This document shows positions 14,951 through 25,643 of a stretch of DNA of 44,924 nucleotides, in pieces (the first letter of the stretch is position 1; each line of letters starts with the position of its first letter). A program made the position numbers and the translations under genes. This DNA is from Myxococcota bacterium (GTDB lineage: Bacteria > Myxococcota_C > UBA6777): contig JAKLKB010000042.1 of the NCBI GenBank assembly GCA_023150835.1, positions 1 through 44,924 on the forward strand, given 5' to 3'. The notes under the pieces were generated by a model that was given only the letters and a program-made list of their open reading frames with translations, searched no databases and was not told where the DNA came from.

Positions 14951-17815
14951 TCAACGACTCGGTGACCAAGCACAACGAAAGCCGATATCTCGTGCGCGCT
15001 TCCACACAGGTTCGTTGTCGCGTGCATAAGTGCGCAGCTTCCATTCTTCGCGTGCGGAAGAAAGCCATGATCCGCCTCGCACGACTCGCTCACGGCAGTT
15101 TGCAACTTCCTTGATCGGGTTGTGCAATGGCAGATAGCGATACGCTTCTTTTTCGAAGCAATCGGTGACCCACTCGCGCACGTTGCCCGCCATGTCATAA
15201 ACTTGATAAGGGCTTTTGCCTTCCTTTTGTTGCGCACGCACACTTGGCAACAAGCCCAACCGACAACGCCGATAATTGAGCCGCCGGCAATCCAGCGGCG
15301 CCTCTCCCCACGGAAAGCGCCGACCATCGATGCCCCGCGCTGCTTTTTCCCACTCGGCTTCGGTCGGCAAGCGCTTTCCTGCCCACCCACAAAAACGCCG
15401 CGCTTCTTCCCAAGTCACCCTTGTGATCGGCATTTCTGGCAGATCTTGCTCTGTGCGGATGCGACGGCAAGCCCCTGCGCTGACGCAACGATCATATTGT
15501 TGGATGGAAACCTCGTTGCGATCGAGCCAATAGCGATCCAAGGTGATCCGCTCACGCGGCGCATAAGAAAAGACATCATTGCGCGAGCCAAAGCCCCGCC
15601 AAAAGGGGCCTTCGGGGATCTCGATCATGATCATATCAGGGACTTTTTCTTGCGGATACGTCGTCGCGCTCTGCGGTGTGGATGAGGATGGCTGACTGCG
15701 CGGTTCGATCTTTTGCTGCACTTGGACCGAAAGCCGCCTCCAAGCACTCTGGATTCGACCCCACCCAAGCGCCCCTGCACCCGCCAAGATCAACAACAAA
15801 GCAAGCAGCACCAACCCCCACGGGATGGAGGAGCGGCGCTTTCTTGGGCGGCGCGTATGGTGTAGTGGAGGTGTATCCTCCATAGCGATCGGCAGCGCAC
15901 CCCCCGAAGATCGAGGAGTCAAGCGGTTCGACGAAGAGGACGGAGGACTGAATTGTGGGCCGGTCGGTTCCGATCGAGGCGTCAAGCGGTTTGGCGAAGA
16001 AGATGGAGGCCCGACTTGTGGGTCGGTCGGTTCGGATGGGATCGCGATCATCTCGGCAGGATGGGCCGTTTCTTCGTGGCTCAAAGGGATATCAAACGCG
16101 GTAGGTGCGCTCTCCACCACATCTAGCAACGAAGCAGGCCCCTCCCCCACAGGCGACACCAAAGAACGCGACGGAGCGATGGATTGCGGATCAACGGAAC
16201 GCCCTGAATCTTGCGCAGGATCGGAGCTTGGCTTGGCTTGCGCGGCAACGATGGCTGTCGGCAAAAGCGAAGGTCGTGAAGAAGGCCCCCCTCGTGAAGG
16301 CGAAGCGTCAAGCATCCCTGCGGCAGATTCGGCAGGTTCGATGGTTTGCGCAGAACGAAGCGCGGGAGAGATGTCTTGTTCGGAAACAACAGGCTCTGCG
16401 ATGCGATCTGGAACTCCCGTAGCCATTCGTTCCGAGACAGCCGAAGACAAGGCCGCTTTCGGTGCGCCGCTTTGTGCCGAAAAATCGATCGGCTCCCCCT
16501 CGCTCGGCGACACCGTTTCGGCGCTGTGGAGCGGTTCGTTGTATCCCTTCGGATGGAGCGATGCGTTGTCATCGTTGGAATCGACAGGCTGGCTTCCGCT
16601 CTTGGGATGGGTAGATTCGTAATGTCCCTTGGGATGAGTAGATTCGTAATATCCCTTGGGATGGGCAGGTTCGTGATGTCCCTTGGGATGGGCAGGTTCG
16701 TGATGTCCCTTGGGATGGTCAGATTCGTAATGTCCCTTGGGATGGTCAGATTCGTAATGTCCCTTGGGATGGGCAGGTTCGTGATGTCCCTTGGGAGGAT
16801 TCGATTCGTTCGGTGGGCGTAGTGGGATACGCTTGCGTGCGGGAATCAACGTAGCAGGAGAAGCCCCTTGTTTGGCGGGCTCCTCGGGCGAAACGGATGC
16901 GTAAAGCTGCGTGCTGGAGGACGGCGATGCAGACACAGGGGGCGGCGAAGACCACAAAGGATCTTCTTTGATGGCTTGAGAAAAGGCTTCGCGTAGCTCT
17001 TCGCAAGAAGCAAAGCGCTGTTCGGGATCTTTGGCGATGCTTTTGCGCAACACAGCATCCAGCGCATCGCCGATCGCAAGGCCCTTTTCACGCAAAGAAG
17101 GAGCTTCTTCGTAAAGTTGCTTGCGCATCATCTCAAACGGCGGCATCGGTCGGTTTGGATGTGCAAAAGGCGTAGCTCCCGACAACGTCTCATAGATCGA
17201 GGCTCCGACAGCGTAGATATCGGCTCGATGATCGACTTTGTGGCTGCGGACTTGTTCGGGGGCCATGTAGGCAGGTGTTCCCAAGACCACACCCGCCTCG
17301 GTGAGTCGTTTGTCTTGCATCGCACGCGCAAGACCAAAGTCCGCGAGTTTCACTTGGAGAGAGCCTGCCACCAAGATATTGGCAGGTTTGATATCGCGGT
17401 GGATCACGCCTTCTTTGTGCGCGTATCCAAGGGCCGAAAGCACTTGCTCGAAGATCCGCCATGTATCGGGGAAAGAAAAACGCGGTGTTTGCTGCGAGCG
17501 TTGGATCAGGCTCTGTAGATCGCGGCCTTCGATGTACTCCATGATGATGAAGAACTCGTCTTGATCTTCGATGATCGCTCGGATGCTCACGATGTTTTGA
17601 TGCACCAAGCGCGCTTGCGTGCGGGCTTCGCGCAAAAAACGCTGTGGATCGATCAGCCGCCCTGTGGCTTCTTTCTTCAGGCGCTTGATCGCGATCGGGA
17701 TCTCCATCAAGAGATCCCATCCACAAAATACCACCGACGGCCCACCTTCCCCAAGCAAGCGATCGATCCGATAGATATCTTTTAAGACGCGACCGACATA
17801 ATCCTCCGCCAACAT
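14951..17815 (-). CDS. Ser/Thr protein kinase fused to an FGE/SUMF1-like domain
   Basis: About 954 residues from ATG 17815, with TAGGAG about 11 bp upstream. The kinase domain (about residues 15-285) has the glycine loop GEGGPSVV, Lys44, HRDIKPANI and DFGLA, and should be active. A disordered linker of about 370 residues contains seven near-exact 9-residue repeats of the HPKGHYES type. A membrane helix (WGLVLLALLLILAGAGALGW) follows. The extracytoplasmic C-terminus is an FGE-sulfatase-type domain (GEVSIQQYD-like start, KRLPTEAEWEKAARG, VYDMAGNVREWV, VVRGGSW, GFRCA). The paired cysteines of true formylglycine-generating enzymes after RGGSW are absent (WLSSAREEW), so it is more likely a sensor or binding module. 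It follows the trigger-factor-like gene on the same strand. Confidence 0.92.
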   Translation of the reverse strand: MLAEDYVGRVLKDIYRIDRLLGEGGPSVVFCGWDLLMEIPIAIKRLKKEATGRLIDPQRFLREARTQARLVHQNIVSIRAIIEDQDEFFIIMEYIEGRDLQSLIQRSQQTPRFSFPDTWRIFEQVLSALGYAHKEGVIHRDIKPANILVAGSLQVKLADFGLARAMQDKRLTEAGVVLGTPAYMAPEQVRSHKVDHRADIYAVGASIYETLSGATPFAHPNRPMPPFEMMRKQLYEEAPSLREKGLAIGDALDAVLRKSIAKDPEQRFASCEELREAFSQAIKEDPLWSSPPPVSASPSSSTQLYASVSPEEPAKQGASPATLIPARKRIPLRPPNESNPPKGHHEPAHPKGHYESDHPKGHYESDHPKGHHEPAHPKGHHEPAHPKGYYESTHPKGHYESTHPKSGSQPVDSNDDNASLHPKGYNEPLHSAETVSPSEGEPIDFSAQSGAPKAALSSAVSERMATGVPDRIAEPVVSEQDISPALRSAQTIEPAESAAGMLDASPSRGGPSSRPSLLPTAIVAAQAKPSSDPAQDSGRSVDPQSIAPSRSLVSPVGEGPASLLDVVESAPTAFDIPLSHEETAHPAEMIAIPSEPTDPQVGPPSSSPNRLTPRSEPTGPQFSPPSSSSNRLTPRSSGGALPIAMEDTPPLHHTRRPRKRRSSIPWGLVLLALLLILAGAGALGWGRIQSAWRRLSVQVQQKIEPRSQPSSSTPQSATTYPQEKVPDMIMIEIPEGPFWRGFGSRNDVFSYAPRERITLDRYWLDRNEVSIQQYDRCVSAGACRRIRTEQDLPEMPITRVTWEEARRFCGWAGKRLPTEAEWEKAARGIDGRRFPWGEAPLDCRRLNYRRCRLGLLPSVRAQQKEGKSPYQVYDMAGNVREWVTDCFEKEAYRYLPLHNPIKEVANCRERVVRGGSWLSSAREEWKLRTYARDNEPVWKRARDIGFRCAWSPSR
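16601..16789 (-). repeat. 27-bp minisatellite inside the kinase linker
   Basis: Seven full 27-bp units starting with CTTGGGATGG on the + strand, each differing at a few positions, encode 9-residue repeats (HPKGHYEST, HPKGHHEPA) on the minus strand. The unit keeps the frame. Diverged single copies flank the array on both sides. Confidence 0.9.
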
Positions 17816-17899
17816 CCGCGATCTGCTCCTACAACAAGACTCCTTGGCTTTGCGGCGAATCCGCACACGCTCGCTGCTTCTGATGCGCGTGCGTGATGC

Positions 17900-18001: not shown

Positions 18002-19156
18002 TTAATTGCAGTGAAACGTCACTTTTTCGCTAAGATACGCCAAGGCTTTGGCATACACAAAATGATCGATCAAGATCTCGCGTTCCTTGAAGTCCCGAGA
18101 GAGGTTCTTTTCTCGGGCATCCAATGGTATCCCCAACGCTCCCGCAACTTCGCCCAAAAAGCCTTTGAGTTCTTTGCGATCACTCGCCAGATCGGCTTGT
18201 TTGGCGATCGCATACAAAAACAGCGCGCTTTTCAACCGAAATGTCGCATCCATCCGCAAGGTTGGATCCTCAAGCCATCCCTCCAACGAAGTCTCCAGAT
18301 CCTCCCGTTCCAAGCCTTTTTCGATCAAAAATCGCCCCTCCGTTTGTCGCCACCAGTTCTGGATCTCGGCTTCCACAAGCGCGGGAGACACATCAAACGG
18401 CGCACGCAATAGCAAGGTCTCCAACGTGATGCGCACCGCATCTTGCGCCATACGGCGCGCCCGTTGATCCAACAACAGCGCGATCACACCCTCCATCGTC
18501 TGCGCAAGATCCGTCCCCAACCCCATCCGCTGAAACAGCGATGGATCCGAAGCCTCTGGCACAACCAATCGAAACGCATCGCGCACTTCCACCGCAAACA
18601 CCGCCCCCATCCCCCGCGCCATCTCCACCCCAAAGTCGTCCGGTAAGACCACTTCGATCATCTTGGCCTGTCCCACAGGCGTACCGATCAGTTGCGCCCC
18701 AAAGCCCGGCAAAAACACGTCAGGTTCTACGATCAAGCGCATCCCTTCGTGCGCCGTCATCGGCAGCAAAAACCCACCCAGATAACCGACCAAGTCGACG
18801 ATCACTTCATCTCCTTGCTGCACCGCTTGGCCCGGGCCACGCGGATAACGCACCGCTGACTCATACGCCAACCGCTCAAAGGCTTCTTCGATCTCTTGCT
18901 CGCTCAACGCTGGCGGCGAAGGAACCTCGATCACTATCCCCTCCAAAGAAGGCAGGGATATCTCTGGAAACATCGATGGTTCTAAGCGTTGCTCCGTCAG
19001 CACTGACCTCGACTCCACAGCATGGCGGCGAAGGTTCGGCACGCCTCCTTGAAACGTCGGTATCTCGGTGAGATTGGACTTCGCCTCGGAAGCATTCGTC
19101 GCAGAAGGCGAGCCTTGTGTCAGATCAAAAGTCCCCTTGTTTCCGTGTTTGGTCAT
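18002..19156 (-). CDS. Trigger-factor-like peptidyl-prolyl isomerase lacking the ribosome-binding domain
   Basis: About 384 residues from ATG 19156, with GAGGG just upstream. Residues ~75-105 match the trigger-factor linker (LEGIVIEVPSPPALSEQEIE). Residues ~110-195 match the FKBP-like PPIase domain (QQGDEVIVDLVGYLGG, FLPGFGAQLIG, DDFGVEMARGMGAVFAVEV). The helical remainder matches the trigger-factor C-terminal chaperone domain. The first ~70 residues are Ser/Thr/Asn-rich and show neither the ribosome-binding fold nor its GFRxGK signature. There is no signal peptide. Housekeeping trigger factor is ~430-450 residues and usually sits with clpP/clpX, so this is probably a specialised paralogue. 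It starts 33 bp after the GGLLGG protein gene, which suggests a chaperone for that protein. Confidence 0.78.
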   Translation of the reverse strand: MTKHGNKGTFDLTQGSPSATNASEAKSNLTEIPTFQGGVPNLRRHAVESRSVLTEQRLEPSMFPEISLPSLEGIVIEVPSPPALSEQEIEEAFERLAYESAVRYPRGPGQAVQQGDEVIVDLVGYLGGFLLPMTAHEGMRLIVEPDVFLPGFGAQLIGTPVGQAKMIEVVLPDDFGVEMARGMGAVFAVEVRDAFRLVVPEASDPSLFQRMGLGTDLAQTMEGVIALLLDQRARRMAQDAVRITLETLLLRAPFDVSPALVEAEIQNWWRQTEGRFLIEKGLEREDLETSLEGWLEDPTLRMDATFRLKSALFLYAIAKQADLASDRKELKGFLGEVAGALGIPLDAREKNLSRDFKEREILIDHFVYAKALAYLSEKVTFHCN

Positions 19157-19189
19157 CACACCCTCAGTCTTTTTATCGGATCGTTGGAT

Positions 19190-20239
19190 CTACTGGGTGA
19201 GTTGCTGAAAGTTTCCAAGCAGTGAAGCCGCCAGCCCCAGACCCGGTGCAAAGGGCGCCGCCGCTTGAAGGGCATTTGCCACCGCACCCATCTTCTGTTG
19301 GGGTGTGCCGCCTTGAAAAGCGCTCGTCAAGCCCTGAAAGGCATCCATGATCCCGCCAAACTTGCCAAGCATCCCGCCGATCGGCGAGTTTCCAAGCAGG
19401 CCCCCCAACAAGCCACCCAGCGGCGACTTTCCAAGCGCTCCACCCAATGCCCCGCCAAGCGGTGACTGGCCACCGCCCAACAAGCCGCCCAACATCCCAC
19501 CAATCGGCGACTTTCCAAGCACTCCCTCCAACATCCCACCAATCGGCGACTTTCCACCCCCCAACAAACCACCCAACATCCCACCCAGCGGCGACTTTCC
19601 AAGCACTCCCTCCAACATCCCGCCAAGCGGTGACTTTCCACCTCCCAACAAGCCGCCCAACACCCCGCCCAGCGGCCCGCCCAAAGCCCCTCCCAACAAG
19701 CCACCCAACGGTGACTTTCCACCCCCCAACAAACCACCCAACATCCCCCCAAGCGGTGACTTTCCAAGCACCCCACCCAACAAGCCTTGCGCAGGATTCT
19801 GTCCCATCAATCCACCCAACAAACCGCCCAAACCTTTTCCTTGTGTCAATCCACCCAACAGTCCTCCAGCTTTTCCTCCCAGCAAGCCGGCCACCGCCTT
19901 GCCGATCCCACCGAGCGCGCCCCCCTGCGTCAACCCGCCCAAAGCCTTGCCGATCCCACCGAACAAACCTCCCGCCGCTCCCGCCCCTTTGGAAGCCGAC
20001 TTCGCTGCCCCTGAGATCCCACCGAGCGCGCTGCTGACGCCTTTGCCAAGCCCACCCAACGCACCGCTGATCCCCTTCCCAAACGAGTTGGCGATCCCAC
20101 CCAAACCTTTGCTCGCGCTGCTTTTGCTCGCGCTACTTTTGCTCGCGCTGCTTGCGCCGCTCACACCGCCGCGACTTGCTGCACCACTCGCACCACCACG
20201 ACCCGCACTACCCGCACCACCTGCACCGCCAACAGCCAT
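19190..20239 (-). CDS. Low-complexity GGLLGG/GGMLGG repeat protein
   Basis: 349 residues with a strong ribosome binding site (AAAGGAG, 7 bp before ATG 20239). The N-terminal ~60 residues are Gly/Ala/Ser (SASKSSASK repeats). Residues ~60-290 are a Gly-Leu-Met repeat with units such as KSPLGGMLGGLLGGG. The C-terminal ~50 residues are ordinary amphipathic sequence (MDAFQGLTSAFQGG, NALQAAAPFAPGLGLAASLLG). There is no signal peptide or clear membrane helix, despite the hydrophobic rhythm. I do not recognise the family. The regular Gly/Leu pattern suggests self-assembly (glycine-zipper, amyloid-like or structural protein); this is inference. It is the first gene of a leftward unit with the trigger-factor-like PPIase. 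Confidence 0.72.
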   Translation of the reverse strand: MAVGGAGGAGSAGRGGASGAASRGGVSGASSASKSSASKSSASKGLGGIANSFGKGISGALGGLGKGVSSALGGISGAAKSASKGAGAAGGLFGGIGKALGGLTQGGALGGIGKAVAGLLGGKAGGLLGGLTQGKGLGGLLGGLMGQNPAQGLLGGVLGKSPLGGMLGGLLGGGKSPLGGLLGGALGGPLGGVLGGLLGGGKSPLGGMLEGVLGKSPLGGMLGGLLGGGKSPIGGMLEGVLGKSPIGGMLGGLLGGGQSPLGGALGGALGKSPLGGLLGGLLGNSPIGGMLGKFGGIMDAFQGLTSAFQGGTPQQKMGAVANALQAAAPFAPGLGLAASLLGNFQQLTQ

Positions 20240-20588
20240 GATCGTCTCCTTTGTACCGCGCTTTGCGCTTTTTGGATGAATGGATCGAATTCGAGAAACC
20301 TATCGCCCCCTTTGTCTCTGTGATCTTCGACACATCTTCGACCGAGGTTGTGACTTTTTTCGCTCTTTGTGGTAGGCATCAATTGGTTTGGGTGGTTTTT
20401 GTGGGGCAAAGCCACCCCCCCCCCACAACCAAGGGCGCGGCCCCCTTGACCCCGTATCAGCGGGGTGAATAGACGTTTTTCAAATCAACAGCGCTGCCGC
20501 TTGATCTGCCGCGCACGCGGATTTTTTGGTAGCTGCATCAGTTCGATAACAAATCACTCCACACACCTGCACACAAAAGAGGTCTTTG
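20240..20588. other. Divergent intergenic region with a dispersed repeat
   Basis: 349 bp lie between the leftward GGLLGG gene and the rightward OsmC gene, so promoters for both are expected. A G/C-rich block at about 20420-20506 contains two hairpins: CAAGGG/CCCTTG and ACCCCG/CGGGGT. Read on the minus strand, it matches a segment at about 38167-38270 (shared stretches AAGCGGCAG, TGAAAAACGTCT, GCGGGGTCAAGGGG). I could not assign a promoter. Confidence 0.5.
20420..20506 (-). repeat. Dispersed hairpin repeat, copy 1
   Basis: Minus-strand copy of a repeat family whose second copy is at about 38167-38270. Shared blocks appear in the same order: AAGCGGCAG, then TGAAAAACGTCT, then GCGGGGTCAAGGGG, then an inverted CCCTTG. 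Both copies lie in intergenic regions between divergent genes. Confidence 0.6.
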
Positions 20589-23944: not shown

Positions 23945-24413
23945 GTGATGTAAAGACTCTAGTTTGTGATGCAAAGCCTCTAGTTTGTGATGCAAAGCCT
24001 CTAGTTTGTGATGCAAAGCCTCTGGTTTGTGATGTAATACGAAATCCGCCCGCTGTGTGATCGTAAAGAGGTAGGGGCAGCCCCCTGTGGCTGCCCAACA
24101 ATCGGGCGTCTACGCAATACCTTACGATCACGGATCACTCGGATATCGTATAAAGCCTCTGGTTTGTGATGTAAAGCCTCTGGTTTGTGATGTAAAGCCT
24201 CTGGTTTGTGATACAAAGCCTCTGGTTTGTGATACAAAGCCTCTGATTTGTGATGCAAAGCCTCTGGTTTGTGATGCAAAGCCTCTGGTTTGTGATGCAA
24301 AGCCTCTGGTTTGTGATGCAAAGCCTCTGGTTTGTGATGCAAAGCCTCTGGTTTGTGATGCAAAGCCTCTGGTTTGTGATGCAAAGCCTCTGGCGTGTGA
24401 TGTAAAGTCTCTG
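23945..24413. repeat. 21-bp satellite array interrupted by a mobile element
   Basis: About 16 tandem units of 21 bp (unit start GTTTGTGATG, then CAAAGCC and TCTG) run from 23945 to 24413 with few substitutions. The array lies between the permease and the ATPase gene. It has no stop codon in at least two plus frames and several minus frames, because 21 is divisible by three. A plus-strand reading (KPLVCDA) is continuous with the ATPase frame, but the ATPase has its own start and ribosome binding site. I treat the array as non-coding. Element copy B splits one unit. Confidence 0.9.
24037..24150 (+). mobile_element. Family-1 short palindromic element, copy B, with TA target duplication
   Basis: 114 bp with ends ATACGAAATCCG and CGGATATCGTA. 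It is flanked by TA on both sides (24035-24036 and 24151-24152). Removing the element and one TA restores a perfect 21-bp unit of the surrounding satellite. This shows that it inserted into an existing array and duplicated TA, as IS630/Tc1-mariner-type elements do. It has no coding capacity. The hairpin core GTAGGGGCAGCC...GGCTGCCC lies in the middle. Confidence 0.85.
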
Positions 24414-24482
24414 GTAAAAAACACTGACCACCCAACCGATACGGGATCCATACCATACAACCGAGCGAAGATAGGGAGAGCG

Positions 24483-25643
24483 ATGTCTTTTTTTGAAGCG
24501 CAAGGCGTGACACGTCGGTACGCAGGGGCAAGCGAAGACGCGATCCATGCGATCGATATCTCGTTGGATGCAGGGGATTCTTTGGTGCTGGTAGGAGAAA
24601 GTGGCAGCGGCAAAACCACATTTCTTCGGTGTATCGCGGGTTTCGAGATCCCCGATCGTGGGACGATCCGTTGCCAAGGCAAAGCGTGGGTAAGTCCCAC
24701 CGAATGGCTGCCCCCTGAAAAACGGGGGATCGGTATGTTGTTTCAAGATTACGCGTTGTTTCCGCATCTACGGGTGGGAGCGAATATCGCGTTTGGGCTG
24801 CGGCATCTGACCCGCGCAGAGCAAGAACAAACGGTCACACGAACGCTTGCTCAAGTCCGATTGACGGGCTATGCGGAGCGCTATCCGCATCAATTGTCGG
24901 GAGGACAACAACAGCGGGTCGCGTTGGCGCGAGCGCTTGCGGCCCACCCACGCTTGCTACTGCTCGATGAACCCTTTAGCAACCTCGACGAGATGGTCAA
25001 AGCGGAGATCCGCGAAGAGATCTACGGCTTGTTGCGCACGCTTGGGATCGCGACGATCTCGGTCGTTCACGATAGCCGAGACGCTCTGCGTTGTGGCGAT
25101 CAGATCGCCTTGTTGCACCGAGGCCGCCTGCTCCAAGTCGCCTCCCCTCAAGATCTGTATCTCCGCCCAGCATCGTGTTATGCAGCCCGCTTTTTGGGAC
25201 CTGCCAATCTTGTTCCCGCCGAGCGCAAGGCTGGCGCGTATCATTGCGCCTTGGGTGTCCTCCCTGCCCCACACGATCCGCGCCCTCCCGCCCAAGGATG
25301 GCTGTGCATCCGCCCCGAACACCTTTCGATGGGCGGTGCGCAGATATCGGATATCCCGCTCATTGCGATCTCCTGCGCGATCCGCGCCTGCCACTTTCTC
25401 GGTCCGTACTGGGAGATCCATCTAACTCCACACCCCGCACATCCCCAAACCGCCCTTCTCTACGCCTCTTCGCCTGCGCCCATCCGCCCTGCTCTCTTCG
25501 GCGATCCCTCAAAAGACGCCGCCCCTCCGACACAAGGAGCAGAGACTTCATGGATCGCCCATCTTTCGACCCATGCGCCACCCACTCCCCACACCACCGC
25601 GACTTTTTATGTTTCCGCCCATCACCTCTGCTGGATCGAATAA
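24483..25643 (+). CDS. Iron(III) ABC transporter ATPase (FbpC-type)
   Basis: 386 residues from ATG 24483, with AGGGAG 5-7 bp upstream. It has a complete ABC signature set: Walker A GESGSGKTT, Q-loop LFQDYALFPH, signature LSGGQQQR, Walker B LLLLDEPFSNLD and switch His in SVVHDSRDA. A C-terminal regulatory (TOBE-like) extension of about 150 residues follows, as in FbpC, AfuC and CysA. The separation from the permease gene by 563 bp of satellite and mobile element is odd for an ABC operon and may affect read-through. The second half of the gene shifts toward C-ending codons. The TAA stop overlaps the end of element copy C. Confidence 0.9.
   Translation: MSFFEAQGVTRRYAGASEDAIHAIDISLDAGDSLVLVGESGSGKTTFLRCIAGFEIPDRGTIRCQGKAWVSPTEWLPPEKRGIGMLFQDYALFPHLRVGANIAFGLRHLTRAEQEQTVTRTLAQVRLTGYAERYPHQLSGGQQQRVALARALAAHPRLLLLDEPFSNLDEMVKAEIREEIYGLLRTLGIATISVVHDSRDALRCGDQIALLHRGRLLQVASPQDLYLRPASCYAARFLGPANLVPAERKAGAYHCALGVLPAPHDPRPPAQGWLCIRPEHLSMGGAQISDIPLIAISCAIRACHFLGPYWEIHLTPHPAHPQTALLYASSPAPIRPALFGDPSKDAAPPTQGAETSWIAHLSTHAPPTPHTTATFYVSAHHLCWIE

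Follow-up and report, generated by a model that had tools for sequence, protein, structure and literature searches.

What is a trigger factor-like chaperone that has lost its ribosome-binding domain doing directly behind a gene for a glycine- and leucine-rich repeat protein? The window, by which we mean the whole stretch of 44,924 nucleotides that was analyzed (contig JAKLKB010000042.1), raises this question through two neighboring genes (Table 1). The initial annotation suggested that they may be a dedicated off-ribosome chaperone and its self-assembling Gly-rich client and knew of no described system of this form. Extra copies of trigger factor (TF) without the N-domain have been reported from a survey of 15,575 genomes, with multiple TF copies concentrated in the Cystobacterineae, and M. 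xanthus has three N-terminally defective homologues (MXAN_6153, MXAN_1178, and MXAN_1713) that do not cosediment with ribosomes (Wan et al. 2024, PMC11559001). According to the same study, these homologues refold GAPDH but, unlike full TF, do not prevent its aggregation. Deletion of two of them lowers sporulation to 63% and 56%, stress phenotypes are also known, and the knockouts are viable and grow normally at 30°C. Pulldowns recovered many, partly overlapping candidate substrates, and the authors concluded that the copies are subfunctionalized. The main text of that paper mentions no operon, adjacent gene, or partner. Hence, the truncated TF was already known, and, in the literature searched, only its coupling to a client gene appears not to have been described.

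Table 1. Features of the window around the gene pair
Feature	Position	Strand	Basis or remark
Putative client ORF, 349 aa	19190-20239	minus	ATG start
Shine-Dalgarno-like AAAGGAGA of client gene	20245-20252	minus	Read from sequence
Tandem repeat, 84 bp (28 aa), units KSPLGGMLGGLLGGG / KSPLGGMLEGVLG	19392-19782	minus	Tandem Repeats Finder
TF-derived chaperone: disordered N terminus, FKBP-like PPIase domain, Trigger_C cradle	18002-19156	minus	TIGR00115, Trigger_C, AlphaFold2
Shine-Dalgarno-like GAGGGT of chaperone gene, inside the 33-bp intergenic gap	19160-19165	minus	Read from sequence
Ser/Thr protein kinase with C-terminal FGE-sulfatase domain	14951-17866	minus	Pfam; neighbor, membership in the pair unsupported

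The two genes of the window

The open reading frames confirm the layout first described, a Gly-Leu repeat protein with a Shine-Dalgarno-like site and, beginning 33 bp downstream on the same strand, the chaperone. The latter matches positions 100 to 409 of the 410 positions of the TIGR00115 (tig) profile at 129 bits, below the equivalog cutoff of 180.2 and short of a full-length TF, and it carries the substrate cradle (Pfam Trigger_C, 5e-10, 40 bits against a cutoff of 22.7). Pfam gave no match to Trigger_N, and in the alignment the GFRxGK motif columns of tig are not shared. The AlphaFold2 model (28 sequences, mean pLDDT 86) comprises the PPIase and C-terminal domains and contains no N-terminal ribosome-binding domain, residues 1 to 50 being disordered, in agreement with the suspicion that the N terminus would not fold as such a domain. 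Foldseek places this model with trigger factors at 3e-15, the best match being chloroplast TIG1 (PDB 7zgi), which differs from the window chaperone in being a plastid protein. Compared with canonical Tig, the chaperone thus has the same PPIase and Trigger_C domains and fold but lacks the ribosome-binding part and belongs to a separate clade: in a tree of 52 rows, 39 TF-like proteins form one group apart from tig with a support of 100/100, and the window chaperone falls among the myxobacterial TF-like copies. The TF-like rows of this tree come from two GTDB phyla, and the MXAN proteins are not placed in it by name.

A separate and complete tig gene with the motif GFRPGK, which the initial annotation had advised looking for, is present elsewhere in the genome of the window (G000:C235), so the window copy is not the housekeeping TF. 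The genome therefore fits the pattern of the N-terminally defective TF homologues of Myxococcales, which likewise consist of a PPIase and a C-terminal domain, lack the ribosome-binding domain, and occur as several paralogues beside one complete tig. It departs from them in that the lineage of the window is another GTDB phylum and the partner is a GGLLGG protein. In the complete tig (L046:5645-7237), GFRPGK is kept and the PPIase domain is shortened, with residues of other tigs missing there.

The upstream protein consists of 35% Gly, 17% Leu, and 12% Ala, has only 3 acidic residues in 349 (0.9%), and is basic (pI 10.9), as opposed to a pI of 4.8 for the chaperone. Its tandem repeat runs to 4.7 copies with 80% matches, and we counted 9 SP[LI]GG and 11 GG[LMI][LIM]GG motifs. 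Composition and hydropathy revealed neither a signal peptide nor a clear transmembrane segment; searches against Pfam and NCBIfam gave no match, and PHROGs gave a weak match alone (E value of 0.14). In a congeneric genome (G001), two contig pieces covering the repeat protein are 96 to 98% identical to it, and the chaperone is 92% identical. By comparison with that genome, both genes are under purifying selection: dN/dS is 0.13 in the chaperone gene and 0.03 over the final 116 codons of the repeat gene. These values indicate that both are constrained proteins and that the repeat is no coding accident.

Pairing across genomes

In a first look at relatives, the ORFs upstream of most TF-like genes proved to be low in complexity and rich in Ala and Gly, and most of these upstream genes end in a conserved C-terminal domain of about 85 residues (pattern GRFAPGxNVAIAAxDxA...DPxAS..KKVTSxITAxGSxAAATNIPVVSQxGAAVSxVSS). 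Using a profile of this partner domain, which was built on the relatives encountered first and may overlook divergent partners, we found that 112 of the 140 distinct hits scored as TF-like have the domain immediately upstream in the same orientation, at a distance of 34 to 333 nt (ORF starts in these high-GC loci are approximate). The rest are mostly contig edges, unrelated tigs not caught by the motif filter, or TF-like genes that have a different partner. Because these loci had been fetched around TF-like genes, whole genomes were then searched for the partner domain alone. In 18 such genomes, the domain gave 29 hits, of which 27 lie next to a TF-like gene, and among 27 TF-like genes of Myxococcaceae, 25 have the partner domain beside them. 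Co-occurrence was also counted among 195 genomes of the phylum of Citreicoccus inhibens (G032), whose named loci are Myxococcota: TF-like genes are found in 77, the partner domain in 72, and both in 71. The 6 genomes with TF-like genes only come from three further families; in those that were inspected, the TF-like gene has a different partner.

Distances between partners correlate with distances between chaperones (Mantel r of 0.88 for 112 pairs and 0.58 for 40 nonredundant pairs, with no permutation as high), which, as far as such distances can tell, fits duplication of the two genes as a unit; contact between the products does not follow, since linked genes share their history. Up to six copies of the unit occur per genome, the upstream protein diversifies faster than the chaperone, and one TF-like orthologue is kept at 76 to 94% identity over many Myxococcaceae. 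Matching two-gene units, often several per genome, are thus found across myxobacteria and in the lineage of the window itself, with adjacency to and co-occurrence with one upstream gene conserved, as would be expected of a dedicated pair. Two pairs in genome G176, at 1.44 and 7.69 Mb, are suggested by their positions to be MXAN_1178 and MXAN_6153. The genome of the window has a second TF-like gene (L028, G000:C113), and a second partner/TF-like pair was seen there (L043:12556-14685), the partner being rich in Lys, Thr, and Ala; the C terminus of this partner looks like a diverged common domain, a similarity that is not significant. Partner-domain proteins without a TF-like gene nearby also exist (L195, L196, L197, L198, L199, L200, and L202). 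Some of these orphans are only about 170 to 180 residues long, and those of L196, L197, L198, and L200 have poly-Pro N termini. A search for viral relatives found none.

The partner proteins

While the adjacent pair is conserved in relatives, the usual partner is an Ala/Gly-rich basic protein with its own C-terminal domain, the GGLLGG type being a variant of the window lineage (the window, L003, L005, L006, and L025). The shared string FAPGL notwithstanding, hhalign does not support the GGLLGG protein as a homologue of the common partner domain (probability of about 1%), and the similarity of the L028 and L181 partners to that domain is not significant either. From these comparisons, the GGLLGG protein is best explained as a lineage-specific client class that is not demonstrably homologous to the common partner. 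Other classes exist as well. One TF-like paralogue follows a long repeat protein of the SLAHGAASGHG/GPNGLMHG type (L168:740-1864 and L170:472-1860), and three loci have Gly/Pro-rich or helical partners with a C-terminal coiled coil (L179:377-1816, L182:1712-3187, and L180:1578-2324). These three and a partner at L095:9054-9866, all of other families, have a coiled coil in common that reads approximately IEFEMLKNxMQKLSQMQQAFSNVLNEMHxxAMNxIRxIK and is reminiscent of secreted helical translocator-type proteins. For the TF-like paralogues of L030 and L031, no convincing partner was found.

Trigger factor favors hydrophobic segments that contain basic residues and disfavors acidic ones, and this is what the partners of the common class offer. 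Their median pI is 10.4, as against 5.0 for the TF-like chaperones and 6.8 for background ORFs, and they contain 5.9% acidic residues; the partners of L095 and L180 are not basic. Hydropathy maxima of the partners lie just under the usual transmembrane threshold, none has a strongly hydrophobic N-terminal stretch, and the N termini are rich in Ser, Gly, and Asn. Searches of Pfam, PHROGs, and PDB profiles yielded no convincing family for the partner, weak matches to a tape-measure protein and to the nodavirus gamma-peptide being attributable to low-complexity stretches. A structure model of the partner is all helical at low confidence (pLDDT of 61) and has no match among PDB folds.

A probable chaperone-client module and its alternatives

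We consider it fairly probable that the two-gene unit is a module consisting of a chaperone that works off the ribosome and the one client to which it is dedicated. The product of the upstream gene would be basic, rich in Gly and Ala, devoid of a signal peptide, and probably prone to aggregation, and the downstream gene would encode an acidic TF-derived chaperone that retains the PPIase domain and the C-terminal cradle and, with the ribosome-docking domain lost, would be free in the cytosol. The two products would be made from one transcript or nearly so, and we infer that the chaperone binds the upstream protein as its single client during or after synthesis, mainly via the acidic cradle, and keeps it soluble until it is passed to a membrane, to an export machine, or into an assembly. 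Duplication would have copied the module as a unit, the GGLLGG protein being the client class of the window lineage. Taken together, the recurrent units suggest that old folding machinery has been put to a new use, with each copy privately escorting one difficult protein. The core of the initial proposal, an off-ribosome chaperone for a Gly-rich neighbor, has withstood the three checks that might have undone it (the state of the pair in relatives, the N terminus, and a second tig). Several points count against such a module: linked genes codiverge whether their products touch or not, the published pulldown substrates (PMC11559001) would fit a generalist, some partners are orphans, no homology between the GGLLGG client and the common domain is detectable, and there are the exceptions noted above, L030 and L031 lacking a convincing partner and L095 and L180 having nonbasic ones.

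If the module is real, it offers a reason why myxobacteria keep several TFs that do not bind ribosomes, namely that each has its own client gene, and a puzzle published in 2024 becomes testable. As far as our searches reached, it would be the first instance of a TF turned into a private chaperone, and it points to a large, uncharacterized family of basic proteins, rich in Ala and Gly, with a possible part in predation or sporulation. As to the final role, one might go further and propose, with much less confidence, that TF was turned, apparently in a single event, into a family of chaperones with one client each. Gene order would tie every one of them to a low-complexity protein that diversifies quickly, is membrane active or self-assembling, and is exported or assembled in predation or sporulation, and the GGLLGG protein would be one such structural polymer.

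A special case of the module, which we regard as possible rather than likely, is that a type III secretion system (T3SS)-like or other export machine takes the partner as a substrate (translocator, needle, or effector-like), with the TF-like protein as the secretion chaperone of the partner, by analogy with hydrophobic translocators and their chaperones. Dedicated secretion chaperones, such as the T3SS translocator chaperones and the EagR-type chaperones of the type VI secretion system (T6SS), are encoded beside one hydrophobic client. The resemblance to the present pair is limited to the way of working, a small chaperone gene beside a hydrophobic client gene, since the fold families are unrelated to that of the TF-like chaperone; for chloroplast TIG1, we know of no client gene pairing at all. 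The Ser/Gly/Asn-rich N termini without a signal peptide, the moderately hydrophobic segments just below the transmembrane threshold, and the low-confidence helical model of the partner would all suit such a substrate. An export gate of the FHIPEP family is present in 21 of 21 genomes tested, yet genomes that lack the pair have it too and it may be flagellar, which makes it uninformative here, and no secretion genes were recognized beside the inspected pairs. TssK is absent from G000 to G004, among which G004 and G002 are MAGs labeled Deltaproteobacteria and Myxococcales. This excludes the T6SS as a general export route, and an accessory T6SS role of the pair is ruled out for the lineage of the window.

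We find it unlikely that the TF-like proteins serve as general foldases away from the ribosome and were retained as such after duplication, with the upstream gene carried along as a neighbor. Such an explanation is in line with the subfunctionalization favored by Wan et al. (2024, PMC11559001), whose homologues refolded GAPDH and pulled down many proteins, although the same homologues have lost the ability to prevent aggregation of the model substrate. It is harder to reconcile with a same-strand neighbor that is kept for nearly every paralogue, in varied genomic surroundings and in two GTDB phyla, which argues against hitchhiking.

The fuller version of the initial annotation, a self-assembling GGLLGG polymer controlled by the downstream kinase, seems improbable. 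The low-complexity repeats would agree with a polymer, but the majority of partners are of other kinds than GGLLGG. Downstream of the chaperone, a kinase gene is found in G000 and G001, which belong to the same genus, and otherwise only at G002:C651, where it is a different one; most relatives have no kinase next to the pair, and kinase control is therefore unsupported. Least probable of all is a toxin-antitoxin-like pair in which a membrane-active, toxic partner is neutralized by the chaperone, as the basic, moderately hydrophobic partner and the strict linkage might suggest, given that loss of the antitoxin alone should be harmful whereas the M. xanthus knockouts grow normally (PMC11559001), that the orthologue is conserved over many Myxococcaceae in a manner unlike mobile toxin-antitoxin loci, and that orphan partners exist.

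Two further repeats were seen in the window. The linker of the kinase contains PKGHYESDHPKGHHEPAH-type repeats, and an in-frame tandem repeat (KPLVCDVKPLVCDT...) at positions 24087 to 24500 opens an ORF that runs into an ABC transporter ATPase; it is probably an intergenic minisatellite or an overextended ORF start.
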